Assembly: GCF_900142205.1 (NCBI RefSeq)
Contig: NZ_FRAA01000003.1
Span: 1 to 64,000 of the forward strand
Direction: 5' to 3'
Length of the DNA stretch: 64,000 bases
DNA from: Reichenbachiella agariperforans
GTDB lineage: Bacteria > Bacteroidota > Bacteroidia > Cytophagales > Cyclobacteriaceae
Shown: positions 15,441 through 23,234 of the stretch, one piece after another
Position numbering within the stretch: the stretch's first letter is position 1
How the letters are laid out: the number at the start of each line of letters is the position of its first letter
Notes under the pieces: model-generated
What the model was told of the DNA's origin: nothing
Seen by the model: the letters and a program-made list of their open reading frames with translations, nothing else
The model's database searches: none
Position numbers and translations under genes: made by a program

Positions 15441-15941
15441 CTATCATCACTATGAAAAGTGAGGGGTTGAGTGGTCTTTTCGATGGGTATTATGGACCAT
15501 AAATGGGCGTATCATAGATGTTTTAATAATTGTACTATTCAAAGTTAAAAAAACCACTTGTCTTTCCACCCTCAACCACGTGTGTTTCGAGCGCCAAAGA
15601 CCTGTGTTCGGACGGTCAAACACGTGTGTTCCGAGCCTCAATCACCTGTGTTCGGAGCTACATGAACATGTGGCCTAAAAAACCCTGCTCTATTCGACTG
15701 AAACGCACTATTTGAAAATACCTTTGAATGTATACGATAACCATTCGGCATCAAACGCTAGTCAGTGACATTGTACTATTCTAACATTCAGTCATTTGCT
15801 ATTTTCTTTTAGTAGCAGAAAGTTTCGGTTTACCACCGTGCGATGGGCAGACATACGCTACCGGCAAGTTTTGGTTTGCGGGTTTGCCTTGCGCGACTTA
15901 GCAATGTGTATGGCTGAGAAGGGCGGGTTGTGTCATTTTGA
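15441..15941. other. 500-bp noncoding spacer with 22-bp array
   Basis: No convincing gene. A short open frame (15450-15641, minus) lies across the tandem array and has no recognisable protein features. The stretch holds the 22-bp tandem array (15556-15687), and otherwise G/T-rich sequence just downstream of hsdM. Confidence 0.7.
15556..15687. repeat. Imperfect 22-bp tandem repeat array
   Basis: Six consecutive units start exactly every 22 bp at 15556, 15578, 15600, 15622, 15644 and 15666. The four central units share AC(G/C)TGTGTT(C/T)(G/C)GA, with a variable tail ending in CAA or similar; the outer two are decayed. Period 22 is about two DNA turns. Confidence 0.8.
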
Positions 15942-17573
15942 TTAGATCGTTTTCAACCCCAACTCCTTCAAAAACTTATTATGTTCCTTTGTCTTGGCCT
16001 CAATAGTTTCATTGATGTTTGTAAGTTTCTTATTCACCTCCTTAAGATCAATCTGTATTTCATCCTCTGATGTACTTACATATCTTGAAATGTTCAGGTT
16101 GTAACTGTTCTTTTCTATTTCATCCATCGAGACTTTACGCGAATAGCGTTCTGCCTCTTTTCTGTATTTGTAGGTCTCGACAATGCTTTGAATGTCATTC
16201 GGTTCATCATCTTCTCCTTCACGCAAACGATTCAAGCGTCCATCCTTTTCAAAATGCTCACTGGCATTGATGAACAGCACATCGTCTTCTTTTTTACATT
16301 TCTTTAAAACCAGAATGCAAACTGGAATTCCTGTTGAATAGAATAAATTAGCAGGTAAACCAATAACTGTGTCAATGTTATTGCCTTTCAAAAGTTTGGT
16401 TCGAATGCGTTCTTCTGCTCCTCCACGGAATAAAACACCATGAGGCAAAATGATCGCCATTGTACCTGCTTGACTTAGGAAATGAAAACCGTGTAATAGA
16501 AAAGAAAAATCGGCCGCTGACTTGGGTGCTAAACCATAGCTTTTGAAGCGGAAATCCTCCGCCATTGTATCGTTGGGTTCCCAACGCAAACTAAAAGGTG
16601 GATTGGCTACAATGGCATCAAATTCTGTTTTCTTGGATGGATTCATCTCGTTTAAGATGTTCCATTGGTTTTTTAAGGTATCCCCATGATAGATTTCAAA
16701 TTCCGTGTCCTTCATGCCATGTAAAAGCATGTTCATTCTTGCCAAGTTGTAGGTAGTGATGTTGTTCTCTTGTCCGTAAATTTTACCTACTGTACCGCCA
16801 TTGTCTTTGATCCGCTTTCTTACGTTCAGCAATAAGGAACCTGAGCCGCAGGCAAAATCCAATACTTTATCCAACTTGCTTTTCTTGCCGGTTGAGGGGT
16901 CTTGACTGTCTAAGGTGACAATCTCAGAAAGGATGGTTGAGATTTGTTGTGGCGTATAAAACTCGCCTGCTTTTTTTCCCGAACCTGCTGCAAACTGACC
17001 AATCAAATATTCATAGGCATCTCCAAGTGTATCGGTATCGGTTGAGAAATCTGCAATGCCTTCTGCAATCTTTTGTATGATGTTGCAAAGCTTTTTGTTC
17101 CGTTCTACAGGTGTTTTCCCTAGCTTTTCAGAGTTCAAGTTAATTTCTGAAAATAGCCCTTGAAAGGAGTTGTCGAAGGATTCATTTTCGATATAGCGGA
17201 AACCTTCTTCCAACGTGACCAATAACTCGCCATTTTGGGTACGAGCCAATTCTGAAATGTTGCTCCATAGATGGTCTGGTTTGATCACATAATGCACCTT
17301 TCTGCGCATTTGCTTTTCAAACTCAAGTACATCTTCTTCGTTAGAAGCATACCAAATACCAAGAGGCGTGCGACCATCATCTTCTGCTACTTTTGGGTAA
17401 TCAGATCCCAATTCCTTTTTGGCAGATTCTTCGTAATTGTGTGATAGGTAGCGTAAAAACAAAAACGACAGCATGTAATCACGGAAATCATCCGCATTCA
17501 TAGCACCTCTTAAATCGTTTGCAATGCCCCACAGCGTATCGCCCAGTTTTTTATGTTGTTCTTTTTGTGTCAT
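15942..17573 (-). CDS. hsdM: Type I restriction-modification methyltransferase subunit HsdM
   Basis: 543 residues, normal length. N-terminal helical domain (1-150), then an N6-adenine methyltransferase domain with motif I D-F-A-C-G-S-G-S-L (239-247) for AdoMet binding and motif IV N-P-P-F (324-327), the catalytic signature. Both are intact. With HsdS it forms the modification complex that methylates adenine in a bipartite site. It is last in the transcription order xre-hsdR-gxxexxy-hsdS-transposase-hsdM. A REP-associated transposase separates it from hsdS by over 800 bp, so it may need its own promoter in 17574-17761. Confidence 0.95.
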   Translation of the reverse strand: MTQKEQHKKLGDTLWGIANDLRGAMNADDFRDYMLSFLFLRYLSHNYEESAKKELGSDYPKVAEDDGRTPLGIWYASNEEDVLEFEKQMRRKVHYVIKPDHLWSNISELARTQNGELLVTLEEGFRYIENESFDNSFQGLFSEINLNSEKLGKTPVERNKKLCNIIQKIAEGIADFSTDTDTLGDAYEYLIGQFAAGSGKKAGEFYTPQQISTILSEIVTLDSQDPSTGKKSKLDKVLDFACGSGSLLLNVRKRIKDNGGTVGKIYGQENNITTYNLARMNMLLHGMKDTEFEIYHGDTLKNQWNILNEMNPSKKTEFDAIVANPPFSLRWEPNDTMAEDFRFKSYGLAPKSAADFSFLLHGFHFLSQAGTMAIILPHGVLFRGGAEERIRTKLLKGNNIDTVIGLPANLFYSTGIPVCILVLKKCKKEDDVLFINASEHFEKDGRLNRLREGEDDEPNDIQSIVETYKYRKEAERYSRKVSMDEIEKNSYNLNISRYVSTSEDEIQIDLKEVNKKLTNINETIEAKTKEHNKFLKELGLKTI

Positions 17574-17685
17574 ATTGTGTTTGATAAAATTAGCTGATGA
17601 GTTTCTAGTGAATAAGGCAATCGACAGATATAAAGTGACTTATGAACCCTCACAAACTAAGAGTGATTTTCTAATGAAATAAAAA

Positions 17686-17757
17686 AGGGGCATAGCCCTG
17701 TTGTCTTCATAGCCGAATGTGTACACGGAATTTATAAGGGGCGTTAGCCCTGATATC
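17686..17757. repeat. Two REP-like hairpins downstream of the transposase
   Basis: AGGGGCATAGCCCTG at 17686-17700 and AAGGGGCGTTAGCCCTGATA beginning at 17736 both fold as short bulged stems with a 4-nt loop. They share the AGGGGC-N4-GCCCTG core found four more times on the other side of the transposase. Confidence 0.75.
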
Positions 17758-17761
17758 TTTT

Positions 17762-18223
17762 CTAATCGTACCATTCAAATACATATTTTGGGTTAAAATC
17801 AACGTCAAATTTTTCAAGCAATAACAAATACTCTTCTCGAAACGATTGTTTTTTATGGTGTTCGGGTTGGTTCAAAACATATTTTACCACCTTATCGATA
17901 TGTGATTTCGAATAGGTAAATGCCCCGTATCCATCTTGCCACGAAAATTTACCGGGAATGTATTTTTTCTCATTAAGCCATTTAGAAGAACCTGATTTAA
18001 CTTGCTCCATTAATTTTGAAGGTGCAATGGTTGGATGCATTCCTACAAAAATATGGGTGTGATCGGGATTGCAATAGATGGCATACGTTTTACATTTTTG
18101 GTTCGTGACAATGCCACACATTACCTTTTCCAATTCATCTCTAAACGATTCCTTGATAAGATTTTCTCGCCCTTTAACCGAGAAAACGAATTGAATGTAT
18201 AGTTGTGTGTAGGTGTTTGCCAT
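17762..18223 (-). CDS. REP-associated tyrosine transposase (RAYT, IS200-like Y1)
   Basis: 153 residues. The HUH-type metal motif is H-T-H (55-57) within N-P-D-H-T-H-I-F-V. W-Q-D-G-Y-G-A-F-T-Y-S is at about 95-105. The likely catalytic tyrosine is Tyr 115 in V-K-Y-V-L-N-Q. These mark the Y1 transposase superfamily, which cuts and rejoins single-stranded DNA at hairpins. It lacks left and right ends of a classical IS. Instead it is surrounded by at least six REP-like palindromes, two upstream ones forming an inverted pair, as expected for a RAYT. It is inserted between hsdS and hsdM, in the same direction. An ordinary IS200 member is the alternative. Confidence 0.85.
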   Translation of the reverse strand: MANTYTQLYIQFVFSVKGRENLIKESFRDELEKVMCGIVTNQKCKTYAIYCNPDHTHIFVGMHPTIAPSKLMEQVKSGSSKWLNEKKYIPGKFSWQDGYGAFTYSKSHIDKVVKYVLNQPEHHKKQSFREEYLLLLEKFDVDFNPKYVFEWYD

Positions 18224-18229
18224 TTTTTT

Positions 18230-18387
18230 GATGTCAGGGCTACGCCCCTTCTATTATTGGTTATATTTTTCTACGAAGATTTTAGGGCTAACGCCCCTGT
18301 ATATCAACTTTGTTAAGGGGCATAGCCCCGATATCATCGTAGAAAAAGTCATGTTTATAACAATTTAGGGGCGTTAGACCTGATATC
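18230..18387. repeat. Four REP-like palindromes including a REPIN
   Basis: Copies lie at 18230-18250 (inverted), 18284-18298 (inverted), 18315-18335 (direct) and 18364-18387 (direct). The middle two face each other and are bounded by perfect 11-bp inverted arms, TTTTTCTACGA at 18266-18276 and its complement at 18337-18347. This makes an 82-bp REPIN-like unit. All share the AGGGGC-N4-GCCCTGATATC core. Confidence 0.75.
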
Positions 18388-18416
18388 GTTTGCTTGTTAT
18401 CGATTTTTTCATTTTT

Positions 18417-19682
18417 CTAATCATTAATCTTTGGAAACAAACCCTGCATTAAACCTTTTTTGTGCTGCTGCAATTGCTCAATTTTCTCTGCTTGGGCTGT
18501 GATTAATTCATCCAACGCTGAAAGGCAGGAAGCGATTTTTTGTTGTTCACCGCTTTTAGTACTTGGATAACAAATAGGAATATTTTTTACAAGCTCACCG
18601 CTTAAATTATCTTGTCCACCTTGATTACTAATAGTTCGAATTTCATCATATCTGGAAGCTAAATTTTGAAACACGAAATTGACATTCATTCCTGCATTCA
18701 ATTTTATAGCTGCACATGCCTGATTAATTGCTGCATCAAAACCCAGAACAGCGACTTTGCCTCGAGTTTTCCCCTGTCCATACATTGCCATTAAAATCGT
18801 ACCCTTTGGAAAAATTTTAGTTGATGATTTTTTTAATCCTAATGTCGTAATGAATTCATTTGATTTTTTTATTTCATTAAAATCAATCAAAGTTGTTGAA
18901 ACCCACGGGATATTACCATTCCAATACTCCATTTTTGAACGACTTGGAGTACCTCCGGAAGATATATCTGCTATTCCATCCAATATTGTGAAATTCCACT
19001 CCCCATCACCTTCAAACTCCTTAAAACGCACCTTAGGCACAGTTTCGCCTTCTTGTGGGAAAAGGTTTTGCATCAAGCCTTTTTTGTGGTCTTTGAGGGC
19101 GCCCAGCTTATCGTTGTGGGCAGCCAATAGCTCATCTAAAGAAGAAAGGCAGGAGGCGATTTTTTGTTGTTCTGGGAGATTTTTAGGAACAATACACTCA
19201 AACTCTTCTAAGTCAGAATTTTTTAAATTATTTATATTTCCGCCTCCGATTGATAAGGCAATAAATGTTTGATAAGCATCAGATTGTAAAAGGTACTTAG
19301 TGAATCTATTTTTCGGCCTCATTATAGAGCAGAAAGCACCTACCGTTATCTTCCCATCATACTCACCTTGATATTCCGCATTCTTACCTACTAAGGATTT
19401 ACTACCATTTGACATACATATGACTATGTCACCATTCAGTAGTTTTAGGTCATCAGGACATTCCTTCTCAACAAAAACTAAATCTTTATCTAGAACAAGT
19501 GTGTCATTTTGAATATTACCTGACCTCAATACCAGTAAGCCTTTATTTGCAGTATCATTTTTCCCATAGGTTAAACCTCTGTAAAAAGTAGCGTATTGCT
19601 TTAATTTGATTTCCGACCATTCTCCGTCATTCACAAACTCGGGAAAACGAAATTCAGGTATTAATTTCATCTCTTTACTCAT
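18417..19682 (-). CDS. hsdS: Type I restriction-modification specificity subunit HsdS
   Basis: 421 residues, normal length. Two target-recognition domains (about 20-160 and 225-370) are each followed by a conserved helical region containing Q-Q-K-I-A-S-C-L-S-x-L-D-E-L and H-K-K-G-L-M-Q. The near-identity of these two repeats is usual and forms the spacer in the bipartite recognition site. Its ATG overlaps a duplicated copy of the hsdR 3' codons (Leu-Ala-Ala-Tyr-Glu-stop, 19677-19694), left by insertion of the upstream nuclease cassette. No second partial hsdS or invertase is present, so phase variation by inversion is not indicated. Confidence 0.95.
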   Translation of the reverse strand: MSKEMKLIPEFRFPEFVNDGEWSEIKLKQYATFYRGLTYGKNDTANKGLLVLRSGNIQNDTLVLDKDLVFVEKECPDDLKLLNGDIVICMSNGSKSLVGKNAEYQGEYDGKITVGAFCSIMRPKNRFTKYLLQSDAYQTFIALSIGGGNINNLKNSDLEEFECIVPKNLPEQQKIASCLSSLDELLAAHNDKLGALKDHKKGLMQNLFPQEGETVPKVRFKEFEGDGEWNFTILDGIADISSGGTPSRSKMEYWNGNIPWVSTTLIDFNEIKKSNEFITTLGLKKSSTKIFPKGTILMAMYGQGKTRGKVAVLGFDAAINQACAAIKLNAGMNVNFVFQNLASRYDEIRTISNQGGQDNLSGELVKNIPICYPSTKSGEQQKIASCLSALDELITAQAEKIEQLQQHKKGLMQGLFPKIND

Positions 19683-20286
19683 AAGCTGCTAATTGTCTGA
19701 ACCTTAATTTTTTGGATTTTCTTGATTGCCTGATTTTCTTAGATGGATCAAATCATGTCCATCCTTTAATCCTTTTTTATAATGGTTCAAGACTTTGTTG
19801 TTGTGTACTCTTTTGAACTGTAATGACTTTGCTCCAAAATTGATGAGCAAGCCAATTTCTAAATTATAGGCTTCCACGTAATTCATGGCTTGCGCCAGGT
19901 GCACATCTTCGAGGTTGATAATTGCTTTTATTTCCACCATGATTTTGTCTTCTACAAAAAAGTCGACTCTACGTGTGCCTATGTCATGCCCTTTGTATTG
20001 AATGCTCATTTCATACTCTCGGCTATACGCAATATTCTTTTCTGCCATTTCAATTGCCAAGGCCCTTTGATAAATGACTTCTTGGAACCCATTGCCCAGT
20101 GTTTTATGCACTTCCATGGCTGCTCCAATTATATTATGAGTCAACTCCTTATATTCCATATTGTCAGAACCTTGTTTTTTTTGATTGGCTTGATGACTTG
20201 ATTTTTCCCTTTTTGTTATCCTTAATCATGGTAATCCAATAATCCTTATTAATCATGGTTCAGACGACTATTCATAAGCTGCCAAT
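19680..20286. mobile_element. GxxExxY nuclease cassette with target duplication
   Basis: The cassette is bounded by exact 9-bp inverted repeats, GTCTGAACC (19695-19703) and GGTTCAGAC (20257-20265). A further GTCAGAACC (20163-20171) sits just before the gene start. Outside lie near-perfect direct repeats CATAAGCTGC(T/C)AAT at 19680-19693 and 20273-20286 (13 of 14 identical). These are the overlapping hsdR end and hsdS start of the ancestral operon, so they behave as a target duplication. The segment 20163-20265 is noncoding and could fold. Confidence 0.8.
19704..20159 (-). CDS. GxxExxY-family PD-(D/E)XK nuclease-like protein
   Basis: 151 residues. The family signature G-F-Q-E-V-I-Y is at 24-30. 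The core continues with R-V-D-F-F (Asp 66) and V-E-I-K (Glu 76, Lys 78), giving the complete PD-(D/E)XK-type set Glu 27, Asp 66, Glu 76, Lys 78. An active nuclease is therefore plausible, though no member's function is firmly known to me. The gene is inserted between hsdR and hsdS as a discrete cassette in the same direction. It is probably not a subunit of the restriction enzyme but a passenger. The tail after about residue 130 is polar and may be partly element sequence. Confidence 0.88.
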   Translation of the reverse strand: MEYKELTHNIIGAAMEVHKTLGNGFQEVIYQRALAIEMAEKNIAYSREYEMSIQYKGHDIGTRRVDFFVEDKIMVEIKAIINLEDVHLAQAMNYVEAYNLEIGLLINFGAKSLQFKRVHNNKVLNHYKKGLKDGHDLIHLRKSGNQENPKN

Positions 20287-23234
20287 CCACTAATTTCCCT
20301 GCCTTGCGCCAACTTCTTAAGTTGTGGTACCAGATCACTCATTAGTGCCGTTTCAGCTTTGCTTCTTTGTTTCCAACCCAGTTCCAGGGGCTCCATCAAG
20401 TCGGTGAGTTTTTCTCCGTCAAAAATCATTCGGTTCATGATCTGCTCTACAAAGGTTTTTAGGGCTGTGGTTTGCAAACCATGGTTGTTGGCAATTTTTG
20501 CCAGCTCTTTGTCGTATTTTTCTACTCTAAAGGTTTCGACCATGTTGTATATTTCTTCAACGCTATATCCCCTAGACCTGTCTAGCTGTTTTATAAAATC
20601 GGTTAAGTCTTCCTCTTCTTCCATCAGATTCGAATTGGACTTAAACAAACTGATGAGTTGTGAATCAGTCATTTTCTGTTTAGCAGGCTTTTGCTGCGTG
20701 CTGTCGGCAATCAGGCGTATGATGTAATCGTAATCAATCACCGCAGAGGCAAAGAGTACAAATTCAAAATCGAGTTGCTGAATGTCTTCGGGTGCATCTG
20801 TCCCTTCTTTTTCTTGCCTTTTCTTAAAGGCTTTTGCTGTTTCTAAATAGGAACTTTTGAATTCTTGATAGTTGTTTTTTGGCAGAATGGCTTCAATGGT
20901 ATTTTTCTGCTGTTCTTCCAAATCGGTGTATTGGTCGAGTTGGGTTTTTAGGCGTTGTACTTCCTTAAAGTTTTTTACGAAAGCAATCTTAGCCGCATCT
21001 CCACGAAGGTTGTACACTTCTTGTGGTTCATTTACCAAGTTGTGTGCTGCCATAAAATCGCCCAAAGCTTCCACTGCTTTTTGGTATTGGTCAATCACCA
21101 CTGGAGCAGGATCCACCATCCAAATTTCTTTGGCTTTACTTCCATCTTCACCAGAGAAGAGGGTTATAGCTTGGTTTACAGCTTCTTGTTGCGAACGGAA
21201 ATCGAGGATATTACCGTGGGGTTTGGTGTTGTTTAATACCCGATTGGTTCGTGAAAACGCTTGAATTAGTCCGTGGTATTTCAGGTTTTTGTCAACATAT
21301 AGCGTATTCAAGTATTTTGAATCAAAACCTGTGAGTAGCATATCTACCACGATGGTGATGTCTATCCTTTCTTCTGGTTTAAATTCCTTGCGGGTCCATT
21401 TTTGGTCTTTGATGCGTTTTTGCACATTTTGATAGTAGCTATCAAAATTGTTGATGTCGTGATTGGTGCCAAACTGTTGGTTATAATCGGCAATAATTTC
21501 TATCAGGGCTTGTTTCTTCTCTTCAGGGTTATGCTTGTTGTCTTCTTTCTCCTGCGCTAAGTCTTCCTGAATTTGCAGAATGTCTTTGTTGCCTTCTGCA
21601 GGAGGTGAAAATACGCAAGTGATATTTAAGGGCACATATTCAGGATTTTCTGCTTGCTTTTGCTTCTGTATTTCCTTGAACAAACGGTAGTATTCAATGG
21701 CATTATTGATAGAGGCAGTGGCCAACACCGCATTGAATTTGCGTTGATTGGTAGCTGCATTGTGTTTGTCGATAATCGCTTCTGCAACGGCTTGTTGCGC
21801 AATGGCTTCACCGGGTTTGGCCTGTACTTTTCCTTCTCCTTTAAAATAATCGATGCGAAACCTGAGTACGTTTTCATCATCTATGGCATGGGTGATGGTA
21901 TAAGCGTGCAACTGCTTTTCAAAAATGGCGTCTGTGGTTTTTAATGTTTCTTCTTCACCTGTTATTTGTCTATAAGTAGCATTTTGCTCAAAAATGGGCG
22001 TTCCTGTAAATCCAAACAATTGTGCATTTGGGAAGAACTCTTTAATCGCTTTATGATTTTCACCAAACTGTGAACGGTGGCACTCGTCAAAAATGAAAAC
22101 GATGCGTTTGTTGCTCAGCGGCTCTAAACGCTCTTTGTAGTTTTTCTTGGAGGTGCTATCTAATGCAATGCCTAATTTTTGAATGGTGGTAACAATTACT
22201 TTGTCGGCATAATCGGTAGAAAGTAATCGTCTTACCAAGGTTTCGGTATTGGTATTTTCTTCTACACTACCTTCCTGAAATTTATTGAACTCTTCACGAG
22301 TTTGTCGGTCAAGGTCTTTTCGGTCCACTACAAACAAACATTTTTCAATATCTGCATTGTCTTTTAGTAGCGTAGAGGCTTTAAATGAAGTCAGTGTTTT
22401 ACCACTACCTGTGGTGTGCCAGATATAACCATTTCCACGGTTATCCTTAATACAATCAACAATCGCCTTTACTGCATATACTTGGTAAGGTCGCATCACG
22501 AGCAATTTCTGTTCGCTTTCCACCAATACCATATACTTGCTAATCATTTCACCAAGTGTGCACTTGGACAAAAATTTCTCAGCAAATAAATCCAGTCGAT
22601 TAATCTTTTTATTATTCACATCTGCCAATTCATAAACAGGCAAGAATTGTTCGTCCGCATTGAATTGAAAGTGTTGGTTTTTATTGTTGGAGAAGTAAAT
22701 TGTTCTTGACCCATTACTTACAATGAACAACTGCATGTAACACATCAAAGTATTTGTATAGCCATTGCCAGGATCATTTTTGTAATCCACAATTTGTTGC
22801 ATGGCCTTGCGGTGAGTAACATCTAGCTTCTTCAATTCAATTTGCACAACAGGCAAGCCATTAATCAGCAAAATGATGTCGTATCGTTGATGGCTGTTTT
22901 CTGTATTGATGCGTAATTGACTAATTACTTCAAACTCATTTTTACACCAATCTTTGATGTTGACCAACGTGTAATGCAGTGGAGTCCCATCTTCTCTTTG
23001 AAAATACTGTCTTTCTCTAAGTTTTTTAGAAGCAGCAAAGACATCAGGTTCAATGATTTCTTCTCGTAAGCGTAGAAACTCGCTTTCCGATAGGCGCACA
23101 CGGTTCAGTGCCTCAAACTTTTCTTTGAAATTCTGTTCAAGCGCCTTCCTGTCCGTAATATCAGAACGGTAGGTGTATTTGAGCTCTTTGAGTTGCTCAA
23201 TCAGATTTTCTTCTATTTGATGTTCTTTAGTCAT
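20268..23234 (-). CDS. hsdR: Type I restriction enzyme endonuclease/translocase subunit HsdR
   Basis: 988 residues, full length. The N-terminal PD-(D/E)XK nuclease has Asp 119 and Glu 133-x-Lys 135. The SF2 translocase follows, with Walker A T-T-G-S-G-K-T (274-280), D-E-C-H (383-386) and later motifs including D-M-L-L-T-G-F-D. The C-terminal helical domain binds HsdM/HsdS. All key residues are intact, so the system can probably cut. It overlaps the xre gene by 8 bp. Its natural terminal codons Leu-Ala-Ala-Tyr-Glu occur a second time in front of hsdS; here the stop codon is supplied by the inserted cassette. Confidence 0.96.
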   Translation of the reverse strand: MTKEHQIEENLIEQLKELKYTYRSDITDRKALEQNFKEKFEALNRVRLSESEFLRLREEIIEPDVFAASKKLRERQYFQREDGTPLHYTLVNIKDWCKNEFEVISQLRINTENSHQRYDIILLINGLPVVQIELKKLDVTHRKAMQQIVDYKNDPGNGYTNTLMCYMQLFIVSNGSRTIYFSNNKNQHFQFNADEQFLPVYELADVNNKKINRLDLFAEKFLSKCTLGEMISKYMVLVESEQKLLVMRPYQVYAVKAIVDCIKDNRGNGYIWHTTGSGKTLTSFKASTLLKDNADIEKCLFVVDRKDLDRQTREEFNKFQEGSVEENTNTETLVRRLLSTDYADKVIVTTIQKLGIALDSTSKKNYKERLEPLSNKRIVFIFDECHRSQFGENHKAIKEFFPNAQLFGFTGTPIFEQNATYRQITGEEETLKTTDAIFEKQLHAYTITHAIDDENVLRFRIDYFKGEGKVQAKPGEAIAQQAVAEAIIDKHNAATNQRKFNAVLATASINNAIEYYRLFKEIQKQKQAENPEYVPLNITCVFSPPAEGNKDILQIQEDLAQEKEDNKHNPEEKKQALIEIIADYNQQFGTNHDINNFDSYYQNVQKRIKDQKWTRKEFKPEERIDITIVVDMLLTGFDSKYLNTLYVDKNLKYHGLIQAFSRTNRVLNNTKPHGNILDFRSQQEAVNQAITLFSGEDGSKAKEIWMVDPAPVVIDQYQKAVEALGDFMAAHNLVNEPQEVYNLRGDAAKIAFVKNFKEVQRLKTQLDQYTDLEEQQKNTIEAILPKNNYQEFKSSYLETAKAFKKRQEKEGTDAPEDIQQLDFEFVLFASAVIDYDYIIRLIADSTQQKPAKQKMTDSQLISLFKSNSNLMEEEEDLTDFIKQLDRSRGYSVEEIYNMVETFRVEKYDKELAKIANNHGLQTTALKTFVEQIMNRMIFDGEKLTDLMEPLELGWKQRSKAETALMSDLVPQLKKLAQGREISGLAAYE

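Follow-up and report, generated by a model that had tools for sequence, protein, structure and literature searches.

We propose that the GxxExxY gene lying between hsdR and hsdS in the window (the whole stretch of 64,000 nucleotides analysed here) belongs to a small mobile DNA element, in which inverted ends made of GATT boxes surround one gene for a RecB/Cas4-like nuclease. The nuclease would recognise the ends and cut, and the host would complete insertion; we give this reading as a whole a probability of about 0.6. Mobility, already put forward in a preliminary description of this DNA, is well supported by sequence comparison: the ends recur family-wide, gene-less copies and empty sites exist, different elements occupy one junction and both orientations are found at another. 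GxxExxY genes would thus apparently mark a widespread family of small, apparently mobile nuclease-only elements, often located at gene boundaries without breaking the neighbours.

On the minus strand, the operon reads hsdR, the GxxExxY gene, hsdS, an IS200-type Y1 gene (17762-18223) and hsdM (15942-17573). The element and its surroundings are composed as follows, cores being given in minus-strand reading.

20268-23234, minus strand: hsdR, the upstream neighbour, with an open frame.
20269-20286, no strand assigned: copy 1 of the target duplication, the end of hsdR (Leu-Ala-Ala-Tyr-Glu).
19695-20265, minus strand: whole element between the outer 9-bp cores, 571 bp, absent from homologous empty junctions; 20266-20268 may be element DNA too.
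20257-20265, minus strand: 5′ terminal core, GTCTGAACC.
20221-20265, minus strand: 5′ arm with GATT boxes at element positions 12, 22, 30 and 39, from the window sequence and the family profile.
20163-20265, minus strand: upstream hairpin-type unit of 103 bp, GTCTGAACC...GGTTCTGAC, of the gene-less-hairpin design but degenerate.
19704-20159, minus strand: GxxExxY gene, 151 aa, predicted RecB/Cas4-like PD-(D/E)XK nuclease, its last codons within the 3′ arm.
19695-19739, minus strand: 3′ arm with GATT boxes at reverse-complement positions 21, 30 and 38, the first box mutated.
19695-19703, minus strand: 3′ core, GGTTCAGAC, inside the 3′ arm.
19676-19693, no strand assigned: copy 2 of the target duplication, the residual hsdR end overlapping the hsdS start.
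18417-19682, minus strand: hsdS, the downstream neighbour, with an open frame.

The exact 9-bp inverted repeats bounding the gene had been correctly reported in sequence and position. Read on the forward strand (GTCTGAACC at 19695-19703 and GGTTCAGAC at 20257-20265), they are the sole two copies of this 9-mer in 64 kb, where 0.53 are expected. Since two copies were reached in 10 of 100 shuffles of the window, the 9-mers by themselves are not decisive. A third core copy, GTCAGAACC (20163-20171), closes the 103-bp hairpin-type unit upstream of the start codon. The ‘100-bp noncoding module’ of the preliminary description does adjoin the gene inside the cassette, but it is itself this hairpin-type unit; folded as DNA (20166-20265, cut 3 nt short) it gave a z of -0.19. 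GATT boxes in the arms of the window element are spaced by 8-10 nt. The window's own genome holds one copy of the element only, and high copy number was not seen in its genus, with 0-7 end-pattern matches per genome in 8 genomes.

A GxxExxY gene was present in 58 of 98 genomes searched, the window's own included. From a scan of GTDB genomes for relatives, we retained the best 80 of 160 loci; according to the record titles, they come from Bacteroidota, Chloroflexi, Spirochaetes, Patescibacteria and others, and many are metagenome bins. Plasmids gave 8 records. Among the 81 loci formed by these best 80 of 160 and the window, both ends were detected at most 300 bp from the gene in 59, the right end only in 9, the left end only in 7 and neither in 6, compared to 0 of 81 with a reversed-pattern control. 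The density of end motifs was 2.75 per kb near the gene and 0.033 per kb beyond 1 kb. These ends are composed of the core GTCTGAACC and of GATT boxes mostly 8-9 nt apart: 541 of 627 intervals between successive boxes had this length when full elements were pooled with hairpin units, against 73 intervals, whatever their length, in shuffled arms; the first box belongs to the search pattern. Core variants include GTCTTAACC, common in Chloroflexi loci, and GTCTAAACC, among others. Left and right cores were identical in 24 of 59 elements (shuffle mean 8.0, maximum 17 in 5000). Of the 63 loci with a detected left core, 18 resemble the window in having a complete hairpin unit ahead of the gene, and the other 45 have a simple left arm.

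The 30 loci best matching the family model (L002-L031) are more distant. In the 28 of them whose flanks were long enough, these flanks likewise match each other in inverted orientation: own-partner scores averaged 29.4, when permuted partners averaged 19.5 and reached at most 23.5 in 2000, and the own partner alone ranked first in 8 of the 28. Here the boxes are CACAGAG, CGCAAAG or similar, so the inverted-end layout, rather than its sequence, may be common to the whole family. No match was obtained with Rfam at gathering scores for 14 loci. We found no description of these GxxExxY elements in open-licence papers; one of them mentions GxxExxY in a CRISPR-type RT neighbourhood (PMC8934634).

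Copies of the ends also occur without the gene. The end pattern was searched in 24 genomes and matched in 23, with maxima of 31+30 against 0+0 for the control (G347) and 24+23 against 0+1 (G356). Counts did not exceed the control in G021, G057 and G346 and were barely above it in G024, G027 and G342. Some matches are expected there, because these genomes were mostly chosen for holding GxxExxY loci, a choice that applies as well to the search for homologues of hairpin sites and to the RuvX-methyltransferase set described below. From the stretches read we extracted 47 hairpin units of 83-185 bp: 38 are free-standing, 5 adjoin a nuclease gene, 2 sit inside another unit and 2 carry a gene remnant. 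G347, a genome of 1.6 Mb, contributes 25 of the 47, including 24 free-standing units, against 2 distinct GxxExxY loci in the stretches read. The remnants lie in L198 (genome of L050), where two shortened copies (226-410 and 1333-1515) are found between the same ends as the nuclease element and retain 22 codons that match residues 100-121 of the window protein at 86% identity, the outcome to be expected from internal deletions. As for MITEs, gene-less copies and ORF-bearing elements with the same ends are thus found in the same genome (G347 and G001, with a remnant in the L050 genome). Seven of 8 units folded gave z values of -5.4 to -13.5, the exception being the inner unit of the window. One gene-less copy sits 9 nt after a tRNA gene. 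In-frame hairpins within HsdS, adding ~30 residues, were observed for 2 of the 47 units (L194, L195) and in L131; L194 (13-1536) is a single open frame where a Polbeta/nucleotidyltransferase domain is joined to HsdS with its in-frame hairpin. Several hairpin loops of G347 (L204 1397-1515, L216, L250, L252, L257) include a GC-rich stretch (CCTTCCTGTCGGCCGTAGCCCAGAGGCGTAGGCTGA-like) that looks like a second, nested repeat.

The window protein scored 137 bits against the GxxExxY model TIGR04256 (curated cut-off 35) and 132.5 against PDDEXK_3 PF13366 (cut-off 22). Glu27, Asp66, Glu76 and Lys78, which had been pointed out from the window protein, are invariant in an alignment of 71 sequences, and so is Q90. 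This alignment (A3) includes the window protein and 70 of the 80 relatives (best 80 of 160), 68-85% identical to it; L035, eight loci (six with early stops; L069 and L102 without ATG at the match start) and L082, a near-copy of L071, were left out. An early in-frame stop was present in 6 of 79 relatives checked. The segment QAMNY is presumably the RecB/Cas4 QxxxY motif. The predicted structure (mean pLDDT 84.8) matched Cas4 SSO0001, LHK-Exo, Pcal_0546 Cas4, MGME1 and lambda exonuclease in Foldseek, with E values of 1e-4 to 2.5e-3 and modest TM-scores to the query of 0.38-0.48. Two predicted viral nucleases were closer in fold at ~30% identity (best E 4e-12), the second being the PD-(D/E)XK nuclease of Halogranum tailed virus 1. 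As modelled, the window protein has a Cas4/RecB-like nuclease fold, its activity being predicted. Solved structures searched by sequence gave one match, at E 0.73; PADLOC gave no match for the nuclease, PHROGs only one weak family of unknown function, and tblastn of phage records no match. The median dN/dS was 0.082 over 110 pairs, and the four values above 1 all involve L102, whose match begins off the start codon. The nuclease gene is under strong purifying selection.

In the mechanism that we favour, the nuclease most likely recognises the GATT-box arrays as DNA. It would then cut or nick, and host repair or replication would complete the insertion, sometimes duplicating ~18-39 bp of target. 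The gene-less hairpins would presumably be served in trans. We infer that the nuclease is the mobilising enzyme, as the word ‘self-mobilising’ in the preliminary description implied, and that insertion and duplication follow this chemistry. Persistence of the element may be due to insertion at stop/start junctions, where both neighbours remain functional and the host operon can express the nuclease.

Alternatively, what moves would be the hairpin ends, mobilised by replication of the host or by a different enzyme (e.g. a Y1/REP-type transposase or a Cas1-like integrase), and the nuclease would be a stabilising or regulating cargo. Such a cargo role, which we hold to be unlikely though to be reckoned with, would fit the excess of gene-less units over genes seen in G347 and the presence of a Y1 transposase cassette in the same operon. 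However, the hairpins of this cassette in the window (AGGGGCGTTAGCCC) are unrelated to the ends of the nuclease element, purifying selection acts strongly on the nuclease gene, and the window element gave no match to a further protein family. The Y1 (IS200-like) cassette, which lies at 17685-18391, between hsdS and hsdM, and has its own flanking AGGGGCGTTAGCCCTGATATC-type repeats, is a second small element of this operon, unrelated to the first.

Empty and filled states were compared at two sites. The RuvX / O-methyltransferase interval was read in 13 genomes, 10 of them named Mucilaginibacter and mostly picked for holding GxxExxY genes. It contained a full element in sense orientation in 4, an inverted full element in 4 and ends without gene in 2; it was empty in 2 (gaps of 49 and 26 bp) and unclear in 1. 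The methyltransferase frame was open in 13/13. The RuvX stop was readable beside the element in L071, L082, L093, L110, L083, L107 and L109, and element DNA forms it in some of these. Gaps of 0.87-1.4 kb in G349, G356 and G362 may hold other DNA.

At the second site, hsdR 3′ junctions homologous to that of the window were filled in 7 of 21 operons (window, G001, L032, L033, L047, G027 and G178). L032, L033 and L047 were found via the nuclease itself; without these three, 4 of 18 are filled, window included. Some empty junctions continue with genes other than hsdS. In the G001 operon, from the same genus, HsdR is 93% identical over its whole length and is the sister of that of the window on the HsdR tree (100/100), while the junction element differs: its nuclease is 67.6% identical to that of the window and its ends are TTGTCTGAATTAGGATT...AATCCTAATTCAGACCA. 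On the HsdR tree (calculated without L152), the filled/empty state needs 3 changes. The seven junction elements need 7 changes on the nuclease tree (shuffled mean 6.9), a tree based on few columns and poorly resolved, in which the starred branches alone force only 2 changes for these copies. AU tests on the nuclease tree, without five long-branch rows and the second L047 copy, rejected the seven junction copies as one clade (p 0.0016) and the grouping of the window with G001 (p 0.027). The different nucleases at related hsdR junctions therefore imply repeated insertion or replacement, and either needs mobility relative to the operon.

A homing-endonuclease-like gene, whose product would cleave hsdR|hsdS and similar junctions while they are empty so that repair copies the gene in, could also account for one junction filled in 7 of 21 operons by nucleases not forming one clade, and for a shared site such as RuvX-OMT. 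We judge this improbable: for such a gene, inverted ends, flank duplications and both orientations at one site would be unexpected, and the terminal inverted repeats and gene-less copies at many unrelated sites observed here are unlike homing endonuclease genes with one conserved homing site.

The flanking repeat on both sides of the window element was found to be longer than first described, with 16 of 18 nt identical (19676-19693 and 20269-20286), an identity reached by 1 of 3000 random site pairs drawn at equal spacing. As first noticed, the hsdR stop is formed with cassette DNA, since TAG takes one base (20268) outside the repeat. The ancestral hsdR/hsdS overlap supposed at that time is visible in the empty junction L139 (G198), of sequence GCTTATGAGTAACGAG, where the hsdR stop overlaps the hsdS start (ATGAGTAA). 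This empty site has one repeat copy and no pre-existing duplicated codons. The long repeat, real in the window, is missing from some relatives of the same gene order, L032, L047 and L131 sharing 7-8 nt only, ATGARTA(A); a long duplication is therefore not constant. That both neighbours are spared is supported by the hsdR|hsdS junction and by those RuvX-methyltransferase cases that could be read. In L131 (1690-1710) and L140, the GxxExxY ORF continues through the 3′ arm; its stop lies in the ATGA of the hsdS start, giving a stop/start overlap.

Among 66 elements with both borders, 7 (L072, L057, L065, L091, L090, L046 and the window) reached a flank match score of at least 14, all at the border and over 18-39 nt, compared to 8 of 600 cross-locus controls, in which a shared target gene is possible. 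The other 59, and 46 of 47 hairpin units, had no long duplication exceeding background. Long duplications of the target do occur, but they are uncommon and vary in length. The duplicated segment is the end of an N6-methylase-type gene in L046, L057 and L065, the start of an LRR-type gene in L072 and L090, and a similar start in L091. At hairpin L237, the end of the upstream gene is perfectly duplicated over 19 bp, and within the 160 nt read the hairpin is absent from 8/8 loci homologous to this site (71-75% identity).

In 25 of 69 loci, a downstream frame of at least 80 aa has its start codon 2-5 nt from the right border, 12 others having no such frame, and an upstream stop lies between 6 nt before the left border and 43 nt inside in 34 of 64, with 11 lacking such a frame; both are raw counts with no random control. 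The targeting of operon junctions proposed earlier thus rests on a real pattern, but selection against gene-breaking insertions can give it too, and junction placement may reflect survival by selection rather than targeting. The neighbours are mostly in sense with the element (upstream 62 plus and 18 minus, downstream 61 and 16, of the 81 loci made up of the best 80 of 160 and the window). They include N6_Mtase (14), Methylase_S (14) and EcoR124_C (4) among 74 upstream proteins, and Methylase_S (14) and HSDR_N (6) among 69 downstream proteins. Sites outside type I restriction genes are RuvX, LRR/Roc and one adjacent to a tRNA gene.

Type I subunits are therefore common neighbours, and both mismatches of the window's 18-nt repeat are synonymous, which is also compatible with recombination between two operons. 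The nuclease could accordingly be a restriction-modification accessory spread by type I operon exchange, the flanking repeat resulting from inter-operon recombination. We give this still less credit than homing: it is weakened by elements of the same kind beside RuvX/methyltransferase and LRR/Roc genes and by gene-less copies elsewhere, including the one after a tRNA gene, and the nuclease has no PADLOC match.

Pairing of the ends was compared on both strands for 56 elements. The mean energy was -33.8 in sense and -34.1 in antisense (p 0.82), and the first 4-nt spacer matched between arms in 28% versus 27% among unrelated elements. Own arms paired somewhat better than crossed ones (-33.8 versus -30.0, p 0.0002), as is bound to happen when ends match. 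With no sense-strand bias, free spacers and conserved boxes, the ends look recognised as DNA and the boxes look like candidate protein sites. Least probable of all is an RNA-level element similar to the 23S rRNA intervening sequence, with ends pairing in the transcript, RNase III cutting and the gene as passenger: hairpin potential (the 7 of 8 folded units above; whole window element folded as RNA, z -3.3) and the prevalence of sense neighbours (upstream 62 against 18 of 81) would suit it, but the strand-pairing and spacer comparisons did not support it and inverted copies occur in the RuvX-OMT interval.

The mobile nuclease element resembles insertion sequences and MITEs in having one ORF between inverted ends (59/81 loci), gene-less derivatives with the same ends, some target duplications and empty sites, and to this extent the arrangement is of an already known kind. 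It differs in its sole protein, a predicted RecB/Cas4-like nuclease: only GxxExxY/PDDEXK_3 was matched in the window element, with no DDE, HUH, serine or tyrosine recombinase. It also differs from insertion sequences in a duplication of inconstant length (18-39 nt in 7/66; 7-8 nt in L032, L047 and L131; none visible in most), in ends of iterated GATT boxes and in insertions that hug stop/start codons. To our knowledge, neither this enzyme class, nor box-array ends, nor variable duplications are typical of insertion sequences. Rickettsia palindromic elements are palindromic repeats that can sit in frame within proteins, as do the three hairpins in HsdS, whereas ends of this kind also occur here around a nuclease gene. 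Cas4, lambda exonuclease and MGME1 share the predicted fold and, presumably, the QxxxY segment, a RecB/Cas4 signature; in contrast, the present proteins have a minimal core of ~120 aa and stand alone in an inverted-repeat element. The window protein has no cysteine and therefore no Cas4-type iron-sulphur cluster.

Two further systems can be compared. REPIN/RAYT (PMC3116915) also involve small hairpin-forming repeats, dispersed in the genome and tied to a gene class, but RAYT is a tyrosine transposase, whereas here a nuclease gene lies inside the hairpin ends, and the window's Y1 cassette carries other hairpins than the nuclease element. The 23S rRNA intervening sequence with an S23 ORF (PMC4990558) likewise places an ORF inside long complementary ends, with horizontal spread and degenerating copies; here the ORF in the window is PDDEXK_3, the site is an operon and there is no sign of selection for RNA pairing.

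More tentatively, these elements might represent a whole class of transposable elements of bacteria whose sole encoded enzyme is a minimal Cas4/RecB-type nuclease recognising arrays of short boxes (GATT in the window's branch, CACAGAG/CGCAAAG-like in other GxxExxY branches), with gene-boundary insertion and long variable target duplications, without known transposase chemistry; we regard this as possible rather than probable. GxxExxY genes are common yet named by motif only. The mobile-element reading explains their odd operon positions, defines the true ends and offers a new candidate nuclease-plus-site pair. If the nuclease moves the element, this would be a route of DNA insertion without a classical transposase and with built-in sparing of host genes.

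Some other repeats were observed in these loci. Tandem arrays of end-type motifs, with periods of ~97 bp and 83 bp, occur upstream of or around the nuclease gene in L045 (2224-2918), L058 (2742-2916) and L050. Downstream of hsdM, the window contains 22-nt imperfect tandem units (ACGTGTGTTTCGAGCGCCAAAG-like, 15556-15665). In the window's own genome, two genes for four-helix-bundle proteins (L116 and L118; TIGR02436, S23-like) have flanks that match mutually as inverted short-repeat arrays. This design, clear in 2 of the 6 matches, parallels that of the nuclease element but involves another protein.
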